Shown in pieces: positions 28,576 to 34,695 of a DNA stretch of 35,170 bases. Position 1 is the stretch's first letter. Each line of letters begins with the position of its first letter. Where the stretch lies: positions 1 to 35,170 of the forward strand of contig JAKMFX010000020.1 in the NCBI GenBank assembly GCA_022425195.1, written 5' to 3'. Made by a program: the position numbers and the translations under genes. The notes beneath the pieces were generated by a model that was given only the letters and a program-made list of their open reading frames with translations, did not search any database and was not told the origin of the DNA. This DNA is from Flavobacteriales bacterium. GTDB lineage: Bacteria > Bacteroidota > Bacteroidia > Flavobacteriales > UBA7430.

Positions 28576-28660
28576 AGAGAGGTGGCCGAGTGGCTTAAGG
28601 CGCACGCTTGGAAAGCGTGTATACAGCAATGTATCGGGGGTTCGAATCCCTTCCTCTCTG
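28576..28660 (+). tRNA. tRNA-Ser, anticodon GGA
   Basis: An 85-nt class II tRNA. The acceptor stem AGAGAGG (28576-28582) pairs with CCTCTCT (28653-28659), followed by discriminator G. The D-arm contains GGCCGAGTGGCTTAAGGC. The anticodon stem CACGC/GCGTG holds the 7-nt loop TTGGAAA, so the anticodon is GGA (serine UCC/UCU). A long variable arm (TATACAGCAATGTATC) is characteristic of tRNA-Ser. The T-arm has loop TTCGAAT, with two G-U pairs in its stem. CCA is not encoded. Confidence 0.96.
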
Positions 28661-28666
28661 CAAAAG

Positions 28667-28693
28667 AATCCCGCGATATGCGGGATTTTTTGT
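28667..28693 (+). terminator. Rho-independent terminator of tRNA-Ser
   Basis: AATCCCGC (28667-28674), loop GATAT, GCGGGATT (28680-28687), then a T-run. It lies 6 nt after the tRNA. Confidence 0.85.
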
Positions 28694-28731
28694 TTTTAAG
28701 CCTTTCAAGTGTACTTGTAAAGGCTTAAAAA
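28693..28731 (+). repeat. Long inverted repeat (hairpin) after the tRNA terminator
   Basis: TTTTTAAGCCTTT (28693-28705) is perfectly complementary to AAAGGCTTAAAAA (28719-28731). Inside, CAAGT (28706-28710) pairs with ACTTG (28713-28717), leaving a GT loop and one unpaired T. The total is 18 base pairs. The right half is also the start of a direct repeat found again at 28931. Confidence 0.8.
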
Positions 28732-28769
28732 TAAAAAAGACCAGGCTGCGAAGCAGCGGCGGGATAATC
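28705..28769 (+). repeat. Direct repeat, copy A
   Basis: It begins TCAAGTGTACTTGTAAAGGC, continues through an A-rich stretch and AAAGACCAGGCT, and ends near GCGGCGGGATAATC. It is largely repeated at 28931-28993 with scattered changes. Confidence 0.8.
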
Positions 28770-28914
28770 TTTTGAGCAGCTCCCTACAAGGGATCATCCG
28801 CGGAGCGGATAATCCTGAACCTACACAATTGGTCTTTAAAGGTGAAATACGGATGTCGTAGACATCGGGATTGTTTTGACCCTCTCCCCATTGGGGATCA
28901 TCCGCGAAGCGGAT
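28736..28914 (+). repeat. Array of short triloop hairpins with a repeated unit
   Basis: Six hairpins, all with 3-nt loops, follow one another: GCTGC/GCAGC (28745-28757), TCCCT/AGGGA (28781-28793), ATCCGC/GCGGAT (28796-28810), GATGTC/GACATC (28852-28866), TCCCC/GGGGA (28885-28897) and ATCCGC/GCGGAT (28900-28914). The second-third and fifth-sixth pairs are two copies of one unit; between them the closing T-A pair of the first hairpin becomes C-G, a compensatory change. The first three hairpins are enclosed by AAAGACCA (28736-28743) and TGGTCTTT (28830-28837). No protein function is assigned; the 74-codon minus-strand frame across it looks incidental. Confidence 0.75.
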
Positions 28915-28930
28915 AATTCCTATCAACAAA

Positions 28931-28993
28931 TCAAGTGTACTTGTAAAGGCATAAAAATGAAAAAGACCAGGCTAAGAAGAAGCGGCGGGAACC
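28931..28993 (+). repeat. Direct repeat, copy B
   Basis: This second copy of the element at 28705-28769 again starts TCAAGTGTACTTGTAAAGGC and contains AAAGACCAGGCT and GCGGCGGGA. Its first inner hairpin is degraded (GCTAAGAAGAAGC), and the left arm of the long inverted repeat is absent. Confidence 0.8.
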
Positions 28994-29200
28994 TTTTTTT
29001 AAATGCCTCTGAACATGGATCAGGTGACTTTTGTAACTAATTATCGTTTGCCGGCTGTAACGTTTTAACTCAAGTATTTTAACAAAATCTGTAACAACTT
29101 CCATAAAATAAAATTATATATTTATCATTAAAGTATGTGGTTTAACTAAACGAATTAAAGTTAAATATATAATTTTAACAATACTTTTATTTAACAACAA
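28994..29200. other. AT-rich intergenic stretch without a recognisable gene
   Basis: Between the repeat array and the restriction cassette the sequence is strongly AT-rich, with runs such as AAATATATAATTTTAAC. I see no convincing coding frame, RNA gene or motif. The overall gene-free interval is 28661-29389. Confidence 0.6.
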
Positions 29201-29389: not shown

Positions 29390-29593
29390 ATGAACAGAAT
29401 TAAGGAAGTGTTGGAGGAAAAAGGCATTAAACAAATTTGGCTAGCCGAGAAATTGGGAAAAAGCTACAATATGGTGAATGCCTATGTGCAGAACAGACAA
29501 CAACCTAGACTAGAAATACTAATGAGTATTGCTGAAATCTTGGACATAGACGTGAAAGAACTAATAATCTCGAATAAAAAAGACTCTGAATAA
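29390..29593 (+). CDS. XRE-family helix-turn-helix protein of the restriction operon
   Basis: A 67-residue DNA-binding protein. I use the ATG at 29390 (MNRIKEVLEEKGIKQIWLAEKLG), since the 12 residues upstream in the open frame add nothing family-like and overlap the promoter. The helix-turn-helix spans about 13-40: KQIWLAEKLGKSYNMVNAYVQN, then RQQPRLEILMSIAEILDIDVKELI. Its stop codon TAA directly abuts the hsdM ATG. By analogy with restriction controller proteins, it probably tunes expression of the operon, possibly through the GTGAG/CTCAC repeat upstream; this is inference. Confidence 0.9.
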   Translation: MNRIKEVLEEKGIKQIWLAEKLGKSYNMVNAYVQNRQQPRLEILMSIAEILDIDVKELIISNKKDSE

Positions 29594-31060
29594 ATGTTTG
29601 AACAAAGCTTTAAAAATATAGACGACATACTACATAAAGATGCAGGATGCGGAAGTGAATTAGATTATGTAGAACAGACCTCTTGGGTGTTGTTTTTAAA
29701 ATATTTGGACGATTTAGAAAAGGACAAAGAAAATGCGGCTTTACTTTCTGGAGAAGAATACACAAGACTAATTGAACCAACTTACCAATGGACAACTTGG
29801 GCTGCTCCCAAATTGGCAGACGGAAAGATTGATCATAACGCTCAAACAGGTGATGATTTATTGGATTTTGTAAACAACGAACTTTTTCCTTATCTCAAAA
29901 AGTTTAAAGCCAACGCAAGCGGAGCAGATACTATTGAATACAAGATTGGTGAAATCTTTAGCGAGCTCAAAAACCGAATTCAATCGGGCTATAATTTACG
30001 AGAAGTTGTTGCCCTAGTTGATGAACTCCGTTTTAGAACCCACGCAGAACAGCTTGAAATGAGCCACCTGTATGAAGGGAAAATTAAGAATATGGGTAAC
30101 GCAGGGCGTAATGGTGGAGAATACTACACACCCCGTCCTTTAATTAAAACCATTGTAAAAGTGGTTGATCCAAAAATTGGAGAAACGGTTTATGATGGTG
30201 CGGTAGGTTCAGCAGGTTTCTTGGTAGAGGCTTTTGATTATATGCGAAACATCAAAAAACTATCTACTCAAGACATAGAAACACTCCAAAAGAAAACCTT
30301 TTACGGTAAAGAGAAAAAATCGCTTGCATACATTATTGGTATTATGAATATGATATTGCACGGAGTGGAAGCTCCTAATATTGTACACACCAATACCTTG
30401 GCAGAAAACATTGCAGACATACAAGAAAAAGACCGTTACAATGTAGTTTTAGCAAACCCACCTTTTGGAGGTAAGGAACGTGCAGAAGTACAAGAGAACT
30501 TCCCTATTAAAACAGGAGAAACCGCTTCTTTGTTTTTACAACATTTTATTAAAATATTAAAAGCAGGTGGTAAAGCAGGTGTAGTTATTAAAAACACCTT
30601 TTTAAGTAACGGTGGAGCTGGTAGTGCAGAAGCAAGTATACGTAAAGAGTTATTAGAAAATTGCAACTTACATACCGTTTTAGATTTACCAGGAGGAACC
30701 TTTACAGGTGCAGGTGTAAAAACCGTAGTCTTGTTTTTTACCAAAGGAGAGCCGACTAAAAAAGTATGGTTTTATCAATTGAACCTTGACCGTAATTTGG
30801 GAAAAACAAACCCTCTAAACGAAAAAGATCTAGCAGACTTTGTAGCCTTACAAAAAACAAAATCTGAAAGTGAAAATTCTTGGAATGTACGATTAAGCGA
30901 TGTAGACCAAACCACTTTTGACTTGTCTGTGAAAAACCCCAACACACCTGAAGAAGCACCCTTGCGCCAACCCAACGAGATTTTGGAAGCAATGGCCATT
31001 TTAGACGCGGAAAGTACTGATGTGATGAATGATTTAAAATTGTTGATTGGAAATGATTAA
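29594..31060 (+). CDS. hsdM: Type I restriction-modification methyltransferase subunit
   Basis: A 488-residue N6-adenine methyltransferase subunit. The N-terminal helical domain (about 1-150) starts FEQSFKNIDDILHKDAGCGSE. GEYYTPRPL (175-183) is a typical HsdM segment. The SAM-binding motif I reads DGAVGSAGFL (201-210) in place of the common DPACGTGGFL, and catalytic motif IV is NPPFGG (288-293). With HsdS it methylates the recognition site in both strands, protecting it from HsdR. The start is fixed by TAA-ATG contact with the xre gene; its 3' end overlaps hsdS by 8 nt. Base composition is visibly more AT-rich than in the core genes to the left. Confidence 0.95.
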   Translation: MFEQSFKNIDDILHKDAGCGSELDYVEQTSWVLFLKYLDDLEKDKENAALLSGEEYTRLIEPTYQWTTWAAPKLADGKIDHNAQTGDDLLDFVNNELFPYLKKFKANASGADTIEYKIGEIFSELKNRIQSGYNLREVVALVDELRFRTHAEQLEMSHLYEGKIKNMGNAGRNGGEYYTPRPLIKTIVKVVDPKIGETVYDGAVGSAGFLVEAFDYMRNIKKLSTQDIETLQKKTFYGKEKKSLAYIIGIMNMILHGVEAPNIVHTNTLAENIADIQEKDRYNVVLANPPFGGKERAEVQENFPIKTGETASLFLQHFIKILKAGGKAGVVIKNTFLSNGGAGSAEASIRKELLENCNLHTVLDLPGGTFTGAGVKTVVLFFTKGEPTKKVWFYQLNLDRNLGKTNPLNEKDLADFVALQKTKSESENSWNVRLSDVDQTTFDLSVKNPNTPEEAPLRQPNEILEAMAILDAESTDVMNDLKLLIGND

Positions 31061-32291
31061 AAAATTAACAATAGAGAAGACAAGTTTGCCAGCTGGGTGG
31101 AAATTAACTGCACTAGGAAAAGTTTGTGAAGTAATAGCTGGGCAATCTCCTGAAAGTAAGTTTTATAATACGAATGAAAAAGGTTTAGCTTTTTATCAAG
31201 GTAAAAAAGAATTTACTGATAAATACATAGGGCAGCCAACAAAATGGACAACCAAAATCACAAAAGAAGCAATTAAGAACGATATCTTAATGTCTGTTCG
31301 TGCACCTGTTGGACCTGTAAATTTTTCAATTCAAAAATGTTGCATTGGAAGAGGACTAGCAGCTATTAGAGCAAGTGAGAAAATAGATAAAGAATACTTG
31401 TACAACTTTCTAGTAAAATTTGAAAATGAAATTGAAGGAAACGAAGGCGCAGTATTCAATTCTATTAATAAAAGTCAAATTGGAGCAATCCCAATCCCTC
31501 TGCCACCATTACCCCAACAAAAGCAAATAGTAACCATTTTAGACAAAGCCTTTGCGACCATAGCTACTGCAAAAGCCAATGCGGAACAAAACCTACAAAA
31601 CGCTAAAGAACTTTTTGAAAGTTACCTGCAGAATATCTTTGAAAATAAAGGTGATGATTGGGAAGAAAAGACTTTAGAGGAATTGCTTAATGATAATTGG
31701 ATAACTAGCCATCTTGATGGTAACCACGGAGGAGATTACCCAAGGAAGAATGAATTTGTTGAATCAGGAGTTCCATATATATCAGCAAATTGCCTAAAAG
31801 ATGGGTATGTGAATTTTGAAAAAGCAAAATATCTTACTGAAACTAGAGCAAGTAAATTAAGAAAGGGAATAGCCCAAGATAATGATGTTCTTTTTGCACA
31901 TAACGCTACTGTCGGCCCAACTGCTCTGTTAAAAACAAATGAAGCAAAGGTTATTTTAGGAACTTCACTCACTTATTACAGGTGTAACGAAAAATATATT
32001 AATCCCAAATATTTACTTCAATATCTGAGGTCAAAAGAATTTAAATCTCAATATGAGTCAATAATGACGCAATCAACTAGAAACCAAGTCCCTATAACTA
32101 AGCAAAGGACTTTTACTCACATTATCCCTCCTTTAGAAGTTCAGAATAAACTTGTTCCTAAACTTGTAAATCTGATTGATAAAATTGAAAAACTTGAAGC
32201 CATTTATACTCAAAAAGTAGAGGATTTGGAGGAAATGAAGAAGAGCGTGTTGCAAAAAGCATTTTCTGGTCAACTCAATACCGTAAACTAA
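31053..32291 (+). CDS. hsdS: Type I restriction-modification specificity subunit
   Basis: A 412-residue DNA-recognition subunit with two target-recognition domains. The first runs about 10-150, from LPAGWKLTALGKVCEVIAGQ. It is followed by the central conserved region (PLPPLPQQKQIVTILDKAF, then a long helix). The second recognition domain is about 205-360, followed by a matching IPPLEVQNKLVPKLV and a C-terminal helix ending KKSVLQKAFSGQL. The half-repeats are characteristic of HsdS. The ATG at 31053 lies inside the end of hsdM (ATGATTAA overlap); an in-frame TTG at 31047 is less likely. Only one hsdS is present, with no fragments or invertase nearby. The target sequence cannot be predicted. 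Confidence 0.94.
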   Translation: MIKKLTIEKTSLPAGWKLTALGKVCEVIAGQSPESKFYNTNEKGLAFYQGKKEFTDKYIGQPTKWTTKITKEAIKNDILMSVRAPVGPVNFSIQKCCIGRGLAAIRASEKIDKEYLYNFLVKFENEIEGNEGAVFNSINKSQIGAIPIPLPPLPQQKQIVTILDKAFATIATAKANAEQNLQNAKELFESYLQNIFENKGDDWEEKTLEELLNDNWITSHLDGNHGGDYPRKNEFVESGVPYISANCLKDGYVNFEKAKYLTETRASKLRKGIAQDNDVLFAHNATVGPTALLKTNEAKVILGTSLTYYRCNEKYINPKYLLQYLRSKEFKSQYESIMTQSTRNQVPITKQRTFTHIIPPLEVQNKLVPKLVNLIDKIEKLEAIYTQKVEDLEEMKKSVLQKAFSGQLNTVN

Positions 32292-32295
32292 TCCT

Positions 32296-34695
32296 ATGAA
32301 TGAAGCGGAAACTAGAGCAGAATTAATAGACCCAAAGCTAAAAGAAGCAGGTTGGGGTGTGGTTGAAGGTTCTAAAATATTAAGAGAACGCAATTGCCAA
32401 ATTACCGCTGGTCGTATTCAAAGTGGTGGTAGAAGAGGTAAACCACTTATTGCAGATTATATTTTGGTATACAAAGGCATTAAACTAGCGGTAGTAGAAG
32501 CAAAAGCAAGAAATTTAGAAGTTGGTGAAGGTGTAGCACAAGCCAAATTATATGCAGATAAATTAACCTTGGATACTACCTATTCTTCTAACGGAGATGA
32601 GATTTACCAAATCTGTATGCAAACAGGTGAAGAAGGTTTGGTAGACCGTTATTTATCTCCACAAGAATTATGGATAAAATCCTATCCTCTACGAGCAAGT
32701 TCAGAAATTACAGAACTATGGAGAGATAACTTTTCTAGCGTTCCTTTTGAAGACAAATCGGGTACTTGGCAACCTCGTTATTATCAAGAAATTGCTATTA
32801 AAAGAACCTTAGAAGCAATTGCCCAAGGCAAAGACCGTATTCTATTAACACTTGCTACAGGAACAGGAAAAACAGCTATTTCATTCCAAATTGCTTGGAA
32901 GTTATTTCAAACCCGTTGGAATTTAACTGCCAACAACCAATATCAAAAAAGAAGACCAAGAATTTTATTCTTAGCGCATAGAAATATACTAGCCAATCAA
33001 GCATTCAATTCCTTCTCAGCATTTCCAGAAGATGCATTGGTTCGCATCAAACCTAAAGAGATTAAGAAAAGAGGAAAGGTGCCTACCAATGGCAGTATAT
33101 TCTTTACCATTTTTCAGTCGTTAATGGCAAATGACAATACTGCTGATTCAGAAGAAAATGAAGAAGATATTACTGATTACGACACAGAAGCTGCTTACTA
33201 CAATCAATACCCAAAGGACTATTTTGATTTAATAATTATTGATGAGTGTCACATTGGTGGAGCAAATGATGAAAGCACTTGGAGAGGTATTTTAGATTAC
33301 TTCTCTCCAGCTGTTCAATTAGGATTAACAGCAACACCAAAACGAAAAGACAATGTAGATACCTACAAATACTTTGGTGATCCTGTATATATTTATTCAT
33401 TGAAAGAAGGTATAAATGATGGTTTCTTAACGCCTTTTAAGGTAAAACGAATCAACACAACCATTGATGATTATATCTACACTCCTGATGATACAGTTGT
33501 AGAAGGAGAAATTGAAGAAGGTAAGCTCTATGAGGAAAAGGATTTTAACCGAAAAATTGTAATTCCTGCAAGAGAGCGTTATCGTGTGCACACCTTTATG
33601 AAGGATGCCAACGAAAATGAGAAAACAATAATTTTCTGTGCTACTCAGCAACACGCAGCAATGGTGCGTGATATGGTAAATCAGAATAAAAAGATTAGCA
33701 AAAACACAGAGTATTGTGTTCGTGTAACTGCTAATGATGGAAGTATTGGAGATAATGCATTAAAGCAATTTCAAGACAACGAAAAGAGCATTCCAACCAT
33801 TTTAACGACTTCTAGAAAACTGTCTACAGGAGTTGATGCACGTAATGTGAGAAACATTGTGCTAATGCGTCCTGTAAATGATATTATAGAATTTAAACAA
33901 ATTGTAGGTAGAGGTACAAGAACCTTTGATGGTAAAGATTACTTCACTATTTACGACTTTGTAGATGCACACCAACGTTTCCTTGACCCTGAATGGGACG
34001 GAGAACCTGAAGACCCTGTAATCCCTGAACCAAGAGAACCAAAGCCAAATACAGATGAAGAGGATAGTCCTAGTAATGATGAAGAGGAATCTACAAAAGG
34101 GCGTAATAATAAAGTTAAGATTAAGCTTAAAGGTGGCAAAGAGTTAGAAATACAGCATACAACACAAACAATGTTTTGGGATGCTAATGGTACACCTATG
34201 TCTTCTGAACAGTTTTTAAATAATCTATTTGGAGAAATTCCAAACTTGTTTAAAAGTGAAGCGGAATTAAGAGAATTGTGGAGCAATCCAACTACTCGAA
34301 AAACGTTACTCGAAAAACTAGAAGCAGCAGGCTACGGTACAGAAGAATTAAATGCACTACGCAAACTGGTAAATGCAGAAAAAAGTGATTTGTTTGATGT
34401 GTTAGAATATGTGTTTAATAGTGAAATCAAACCAATTACCAGAGCCGAACGTGTTGCAGCAGCAGAAGCTACTATTTTCACTTTAATGAATGACAAACAG
34501 AAAGAGTTTATTGAATTTGTATTAAGCAAATACATTGAAATTGGTGTTGGAGAATTAGACCAATCCAAGCTTCCTGTTTTACTGTCTAGTATGTTCCAAT
34601 CACAACAAGATGGAATTGCAGAACTAGGTGGAGATGTAATGAAAATTAGAAATATGTTTATTGAATTTCAACAGTATTTATATAAGTCAGCATAA
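32296..34695 (+). CDS. hsdR: Type I restriction endonuclease subunit, EcoEI-type
   Basis: A 799-residue motor and nuclease subunit. The N-terminal PD-(D/E)xK nuclease shows Asp54, then Glu68 and Lys70 in VVEAK, with the downstream QAKLYA motif. The superfamily 2 translocase has Walker A ATGTGKT (187-193), DECH (316-319), LTATP (344-348), and a second lobe with IVGRGTRTFDGKDYFTIYDF. An acidic linker and a helical C-terminal domain (LFDVLEYVFNSEIKPITRAERV) resemble the EcoEI R family, whose members are about 800 aa. It should cleave unmodified DNA after translocation. It starts 4 nt after hsdS; a folded repeat begins two bases after its stop. Confidence 0.95.
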   Translation: MNEAETRAELIDPKLKEAGWGVVEGSKILRERNCQITAGRIQSGGRRGKPLIADYILVYKGIKLAVVEAKARNLEVGEGVAQAKLYADKLTLDTTYSSNGDEIYQICMQTGEEGLVDRYLSPQELWIKSYPLRASSEITELWRDNFSSVPFEDKSGTWQPRYYQEIAIKRTLEAIAQGKDRILLTLATGTGKTAISFQIAWKLFQTRWNLTANNQYQKRRPRILFLAHRNILANQAFNSFSAFPEDALVRIKPKEIKKRGKVPTNGSIFFTIFQSLMANDNTADSEENEEDITDYDTEAAYYNQYPKDYFDLIIIDECHIGGANDESTWRGILDYFSPAVQLGLTATPKRKDNVDTYKYFGDPVYIYSLKEGINDGFLTPFKVKRINTTIDDYIYTPDDTVVEGEIEEGKLYEEKDFNRKIVIPARERYRVHTFMKDANENEKTIIFCATQQHAAMVRDMVNQNKKISKNTEYCVRVTANDGSIGDNALKQFQDNEKSIPTILTTSRKLSTGVDARNVRNIVLMRPVNDIIEFKQIVGRGTRTFDGKDYFTIYDFVDAHQRFLDPEWDGEPEDPVIPEPREPKPNTDEEDSPSNDEEESTKGRNNKVKIKLKGGKELEIQHTTQTMFWDANGTPMSSEQFLNNLFGEIPNLFKSEAELRELWSNPTTRKTLLEKLEAAGYGTEELNALRKLVNAEKSDLFDVLEYVFNSEIKPITRAERVAAAEATIFTLMNDKQKEFIEFVLSKYIEIGVGELDQSKLPVLLSSMFQSQQDGIAELGGDVMKIRNMFIEFQQYLYKSA

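Follow-up and report, generated by a model that had tools for sequence, protein, structure and literature searches.

What kind of element is the dense cluster of short hairpins that lies downstream of a tRNA-Ser gene in a Flavobacteriales genome? The window analysed here is a stretch of 35,170 nucleotides, the whole of contig JAKMFX010000020.1 (assembly GCA_022425195.1; our contig C32) in a 1.77-Mb genome whose close relatives are Flavobacteriales metagenome-assembled genomes (MAGs). The best explanation is that the cluster belongs to a phylum-wide class of structured DNA repeats attached to the 3' ends of Bacteroidota tRNA and transfer-messenger RNA (tmRNA) genes, and its six hairpins are what is left, in worn form, of a tandem series of folded DNA units that carry no genes. 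The anatomy of these arrays and their linkage to tRNA genes are strongly supported.

A preliminary description of the window had placed six triloop hairpins at 28736-28914, and six perfect ones with stems of at least 5 pairs are indeed present on the + strand. They are hairpin A of unit 1 (28745-28757, GCTGC-GAA-GCAGC) and of unit 2 (28852-28866, GATGTC-GTA-GACATC), an alternative hairpin in each unit (28781-28793, TCCCT-ACA-AGGGA; 28885-28897, TCCCC-ATT-GGGGA), and hairpin B in each (28796-28810 and 28900-28914). Six such hairpins in 179 nt compares with a maximum of 4 in 2000 dinucleotide shuffles, none of which reached five; the region is also the contig's richest 179-nt stretch for triloop hairpins, 6 being the contig maximum, and as a single strand the array folds far below its shuffles (z -5). 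The two-hairpin unit does occur twice, with a spacing of 104 nt.

Which of the finer structural claims hold can be judged from a sister species of the same genus (G002; MAG contig JAQWKY010000005.1), which carries the same tRNA-Ser and a related array. The T-A to C-G change between TCCCT/AGGGA and TCCCC/GGGGA, taken at first as compensatory, falls at a place where the sister species has a C.T mismatch or a shortened stem; true covariation is found in the unit's first hairpin, GCTGC/GCAGC vs GATGTC/GACATC, with 4 pairs altered on both sides. Likewise, the stem AAAGACCA/TGGTCTTT, proposed to enclose the first three hairpins in a multi-branch junction, is not retained in the sister species and was dropped. 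A better-supported closing helix pairs the tRNA trailer (28661-28674) with an anti-trailer (28759-28774), partly outside the span first given. The hairpins of that span stand, and the full feature is larger, extending from 28661, the tRNA end, to ~28996 with a truncated third unit included. Its position downstream of tRNA-Ser proved correct and central.

Read along the + strand, the locus begins with the array-bearing tRNA-Ser (GGA) gene (28576-28661; ARAGORN, Rfam RF00005). Directly 3' of it lies trailer segment S1 (CAAAAGAATCCCGC, 28661-28674), which is complementary to 28759-28774 and supplies the 5' strand of two helices, P0 and P1. P1 is an intrinsic-terminator-like hairpin, AATCCCGC/GCGGGATT, with a T run (28667-28691; inverted repeat I4) and has a counterpart in the other loci read. 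P2 is a long palindrome, TTTTTTGTTTTTAAGCCTTT..AAAGGCTTAAAAATAAAAAA with apex CAAGTGTACTTG (28686-28738; inverted repeat I1, arms 95% complementary), whose counterpart elsewhere has the apex AAGCTTGCTT. P3, which is hairpin A of unit 1, is followed by the anti-trailer (GCGGGATAATCTTTTG, 28759-28774), then by the alternative hairpin, whose GGGA is common to it and to what we call the T-arm look-alike, GGGAT-C-[ATCCGC-GGA-GCGGAT]-A-ATCC (28790-28815), which is matched by covariance models R2 and R3 (see below) and contains a C.A site. Unit 2 continues from its hairpin A into an anti-trailer (CGGGATTGTTTTG, 28866-28878; inverted repeat I3 with 28661-28673) and, after the alternative hairpin, a T-arm look-alike, GGGAT-C-[ATCCGC-GAA-GCGGAT]-A-ATTCC (28894-28920), again with covariance model matches. 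Unit 3 (28931-28996; direct repeat D1) is truncated and decayed, consisting of a P2-like palindrome at 28931-28949, a non-pairing hairpin A (GCTAA-GAA-GAAGC) and the start of an anti-trailer; its counterpart in the sister species (locus L009) is intact.

Is this array peculiar to one genus? The array occupies one locus in its own genome, ATCCGCNNAGCGGAT occurring only there and the 296-nt array only there apart from its own palindrome. An exact-motif scan of genome contigs returned only the sister MAG and a lone Myxococcales hairpin (PMCK01000195.1, 7044-7065 of locus L046; an isolated GGATC-ATCCGC-GTA-GCGGAT-AATT, probably chance), a scan of viral contigs for the window motif returned none, a scan of plasmids for the unit of another locus (L102) returned none, and no Rfam family matched the array at a credible score. 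Exact motifs fail because the stems diverge; structure models succeed. Model R1, a covariance model built from four units and searched over 396 genomes of the order Flavobacteriales, picked up tandem arrays directly 3' of tRNA-Val, tRNA-Pro and tRNA-Ser genes, and the stems of these arrays are very different. Model R2 (11 units from 7 training genomes), searched over the same 396, matched 57 of them at E<=0.01 and, by our count among the matches listed, 20 at E<=1e-5, the 7 training genomes included. Twelve of its new loci have a tRNA or tmRNA gene just upstream on the same strand, and others show tRNA 3' fragments or are array pieces at contig ends. Model R3 (39 units) was searched over 395 Bacteroidota genomes and matched 18 at E<=5e-4, other orders and classes included, mostly beside tRNA-Ser, tRNA-Pro and tRNA-Tyr. 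Overall, the adjoining gene is tRNA-Ser in most cases, with tRNA-Pro, Val, Gly, Arg and Tyr and tmRNA also represented. Trained on 7 genomes, a model recovered arrays from unrelated families and from other classes, and the early impression that structure rather than sequence is kept applies strongly across the phylum. Some weak matches were judged to be chance, namely those in a prfC-like coding sequence (L097, L101) and in L061, L116, L118 and L119.

Counting from the tRNA 3' end, the order of parts in a unit is the trailer with the terminator-like P1, the long P2 (apex often AAGCTTGCTT), P3 (loop often GNA), the anti-trailer, ~14 nt containing CCC, and then GGGAT-C-[hairpin B]-A-ATCCC. We compared 27 loci, a set that includes related genomes and is not fully independent: a distance of 95-128 nt separates the tRNA or tmRNA end from the modelled part downstream in 26, the units are in tandem in many, and the anti-trailer finds its best match in its own locus' trailer in 21, with ~1 expected by chance. 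Trailer and anti-trailer can form P0 around P1, P2 and P3, giving a four-way junction; predicted folds of first units have P0 enclosing the inner hairpins in 14 of 24, by our reading, with z of -3 to -10. The T-arm look-alike earns its name from the T-loop region of tRNA, TTC-G-AATCCC, to which the unit's (A)TC-[hairpin]-AATCCC corresponds as a T-arm with a hairpin replacing position 57. Its 3' strand is a copy of the T-arm strand of the locus' own tRNA, and in well-preserved units it continues as a copy of the tRNA 3' end, beyond which lies another terminator. Across 39 units, in an alignment that was fitted to the model and hence leans towards structure, six of its pairs show double changes (covariation score 0.231 vs 0.064 shuffled); the GGAT/ATCC stem is present in nearly all and the C.A site is retained in 36.

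The preliminary description had proposed a repetitive extragenic palindromic (REP) or bacterial interspersed mosaic element (BIME) moved by a REP-associated tyrosine transposase (RAYT, TnpA_REP). Tandem, clustered short stable hairpins with GNA loops do look REP-like, but the array is a single-locus, tRNA-attached feature in the window genome, and no Y1/RAYT transposase was found in that genome or the sister genome. No PF01797 protein was found in genomes G000, G001 and G002 by a search that was positive in 5 of 14 control genomes, and we regard this origin as very improbable. Of the two signs that the same description named as telling against its own reading, single-copy occurrence was found, and a lack of structural conservation in relatives was not. 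A miniature inverted-repeat transposable element (MITE)-like or structured-RNA identity may still apply, though to an element linked to tRNA 3' ends and not to a dispersed repeat. A different, REP-like array (L060; genome G379, contig C1, ~1104964) was set aside: it has GNA-loop hairpins GAACCGCGAAGCGGTGAA / AACGCCGAAGGCGT beside an apparent IS200/REP-type transposase gene and is probably a genuine RAYT-REP system.

A closer parallel is the RtT repeat of Escherichia coli (rtT of tyrT/tyrV, Rfam RF00391), which likewise lies downstream of a tRNA gene, in tandem units of ~178 nt. At tyrV the E. coli units end in an exact copy of the tRNA 3' end from AATCC, opposed by GGAT at 178-nt spacing, so that the outer stem reads GGAT-N-A..T-A-ATCC (here GGAT-G-A..T-A-ATCC) with one mismatch against A and a T where the tRNA has G57. 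In the tyrT-tyrV spacer (L163; NC_000913.3, 1286600-1287700) lies a fourth RtT match, with the same frame, GGGGAAGG..TAATCCTTCCCC, and a tRNA-tail copy. Unlike the Bacteroidota units, those of E. coli have a ~90-nt apical region and the tpr ORF (open reading frame), and they have neither a terminator hairpin straight after the tRNA, nor a P1-P2-P3 junction, nor a trailer/anti-trailer helix (score 8 vs 12-37 in the 27 Bacteroidota loci). The RtT covariance model, which has 4 matches of 133-138 bits in E. coli, has none at E<=2 in the window array, L058, L059, L108 or L128, and model R3 does not detect the E. coli units. Because the GGAT stem is common to both, as is the tail copy where the Bacteroidota units preserve it, and the trailer helix and mutual model detection fail, we group the array with RtT by working layout and not as a member of RF00391. 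A similarity of RtT to some BIMEs has itself been noted (PMC2965389).

Does the unit, then, act as RNA? Units transcribed past the tRNA might fold as RNA and be released during tRNA maturation, acting as regulatory RNA or as a control on trailer processing, with the anti-trailer pairing with the trailer of the pre-tRNA. Published work (PMC4986893) describes RtT as an RNA freed from tRNA operons and tied to the stringent response, and the layout in common with it, the start of P0 at the tRNA 3' end and the strong, conserved folding all suit this account. Against it, in the loci read P1 and its T run stand directly 3' of the tRNA, so that one would expect most transcripts to end before the unit; the RtT model, as said, has no match; and there is no clear G.U or strand asymmetry. 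Pairing has no clear strand preference (p 0.07), with 82 vs 73 G.T pairs, about equally rare on both strands, as expected for a function in DNA rather than RNA. The position of P1 and the lack of a clear strand preference tilt the balance towards a DNA role without settling the question, and we consider an RNA element of this kind possible but doubtful.

The flanks of the unit can be compared with those of integrative elements that target tRNA genes. In L090, L093 and L110, as in such elements, tRNA 3' end direct repeats flank the insert, the tRNA is left intact and a second terminator lies beyond; what differs is that the array unit is ~180 bp and gene-less, with an ornate conserved fold and a hairpin where the att-like copy has T-loop position 57. 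In genome G343, the tmRNA is followed by one ~182-bp unit and then by a second terminator, and 17-bp direct repeats, AATCCCACCAGCTCCAC, of the tmRNA end bracket the unit. The tRNA-tail copy is complete (17/17) in L090, covers most of the tail in L093, L102, L110 and L114, and is clear at the end of the tRNA-Pro array of G102. In arrays of genome G035 (L006-L008), which are possibly an intermediate form, each unit ends in a tRNA tail copy ATCCTTCCGCGATCA and hairpin B is almost absent.

Judged from sequence comparison, the reading that we tentatively favour, while giving it somewhat less than an even chance, is that the units are mobile by site-specific recombination as folded DNA and are att-like elements of tRNA 3' ends. 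The T-arm look-alike and the tRNA-tail copy would together make up the attachment site, we infer, and the unit would fold as single-stranded or cruciform DNA and, with a recombinase supplied in trans, insert at the T-loop/3' end of tRNA genes or amplify from it. Tandem arrays would arise by repeated insertion or by recombination between units. The window array would be a decaying one, with two units and a truncated third beside the deleted tyrosine integrase of an island at tRNA-Ser. Besides the tRNA linkage, the conserved structure, the flanking repeats and the lack of a clear strand preference, this reading draws on the presence or absence of a unit at tmRNA genes: those of G343 and G187 are occupied, and those of most relatives, with G217 from the genus of G187 among them, carry none. 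It also draws on copy number, which differs between congeners (four or more units in G047, one match in G235).

Several observations weigh against this favoured reading. No recombinase emerged: the sole candidate examined was the family to which the sister species' integrase belongs, and its distribution does not follow that of the arrays (present in 8 of ~20 array genomes, against 85 of 296 overall); around homologues 45-57% identical to that integrase, no array of this kind lies within 1.5 kb. Only ~5 of 27 first units have clean direct repeats of the tRNA tail, and most, the window included, keep AATCC(C) only. No pair of empty and filled sites with matching flanks was obtained. Change in copy number could be explained by tandem duplication alone.

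Duplication is also at the heart of a rival account, in which the array is a passive scar, with no function or mobility of its own, left by tandem duplication and template switching at a palindromic tRNA terminator together with repeated integration and excision of prophages or islands at the tRNA 3' end. The window array does recombine, since comparison with the sister species shows its unit 1 to be a chimera of two unit types, and unit 3 no longer pairs. The tRNA ends that carry arrays also serve prophages and islands: in one viral contig (IMGVR_UViG_3300042896_000682 of IMG/VR; L161, 6480-6740) a provirus boundary coincides with a tRNA-Ser 3' tail, and a hairpin unit follows this tail on the far, bacterial side, next to phage genes. 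At L089, L104, L112 and L123 the arrays are preceded only by a tRNA 3' fragment, as would be the case had an island entered the tRNA and displaced the array. A scar would not, however, be expected to keep the P0-P1-P2-P3-T-arm layout, its spacing and the C.A site across classes despite little sequence identity, and we hold this account to be rather unlikely, below the RNA alternative.

The integrase beside the array invites one further comparison, with the attC sites and cassettes of integrons, which resemble the array in their tandem arrangement and in having an att-like folded hairpin, one position of which is unpaired and conserved. In the sister species an intact tyrosine integrase of 274 aa adjoins and touches the array (L009, 3776-4600), with Phage_int_SAM_4 and Phage_integrase domains; it is XerA/IntI-like, its 175 bits falling short of the 265-bit cut-off for IntI. 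The window retains a remnant of its first 36 codons on the - strand (28997-29104). The units fit poorly as attC-like sites of this integron-like integrase: they lie on its 3' side, away from the attI/cassette side, and unit 3 is cut mid-hairpin at the integrase border. Arrays elsewhere are not tied to this integrase family, generally have no adjacent IntI and no cassette genes, and are attached to tRNA genes. This origin is improbable, if less so than the REP one.

On the other side of the integrase remnant, the upstream flank (29105-29197) is common to the window and the sister species up to TTTAACAACAAGTTA, after which the genomes diverge. The same pattern is seen in the integrase upstream regions of four loci (window, ~29105-29200; L009, 4601-4705; L016; L017): a common block, then divergence exactly after AACAA..GTTA-like motifs, with different genes beyond that point directed away from the integrase. 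The divergence point may be an attI border like that of integrons, here belonging to an integrase that has no IntI insert. Directly beyond the remnant, at 29390-34695, lies a Type I restriction-modification operon (XRE regulator, HsdM, HsdS, HsdR), probably the cargo of the tRNA-Ser island.

No description of the Bacteroidota arrays was found in the literature searched; subscription literature was mostly outside its reach, and novelty is accordingly provisional. What the locus offers is an unannotated structured element of tRNA loci, recurrent across a bacterial phylum, with a fixed spacing from the tRNA and an antisense copy matched to its own trailer. The 3' ends of tRNA genes are common landing sites of phages and islands, and native arrays of att-like copies there bear on the evolution of such sites. 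They also provide a comparative frame for the long-unexplained RtT repeats of E. coli. A wider proposal, which we consider rather doubtful as it stands, is that the arrays represent a phylum-wide class of gene-less mobile DNA (~105-185 bp) that would recognise tRNA and tmRNA genes through a folded T-arm copy and, with the help of a recombinase from the host or a phage, insert as a folded strand at their 3' ends. If that were true, RtT, hitherto regarded as an RNA by-product of tyrT, would join the class as a distant member.
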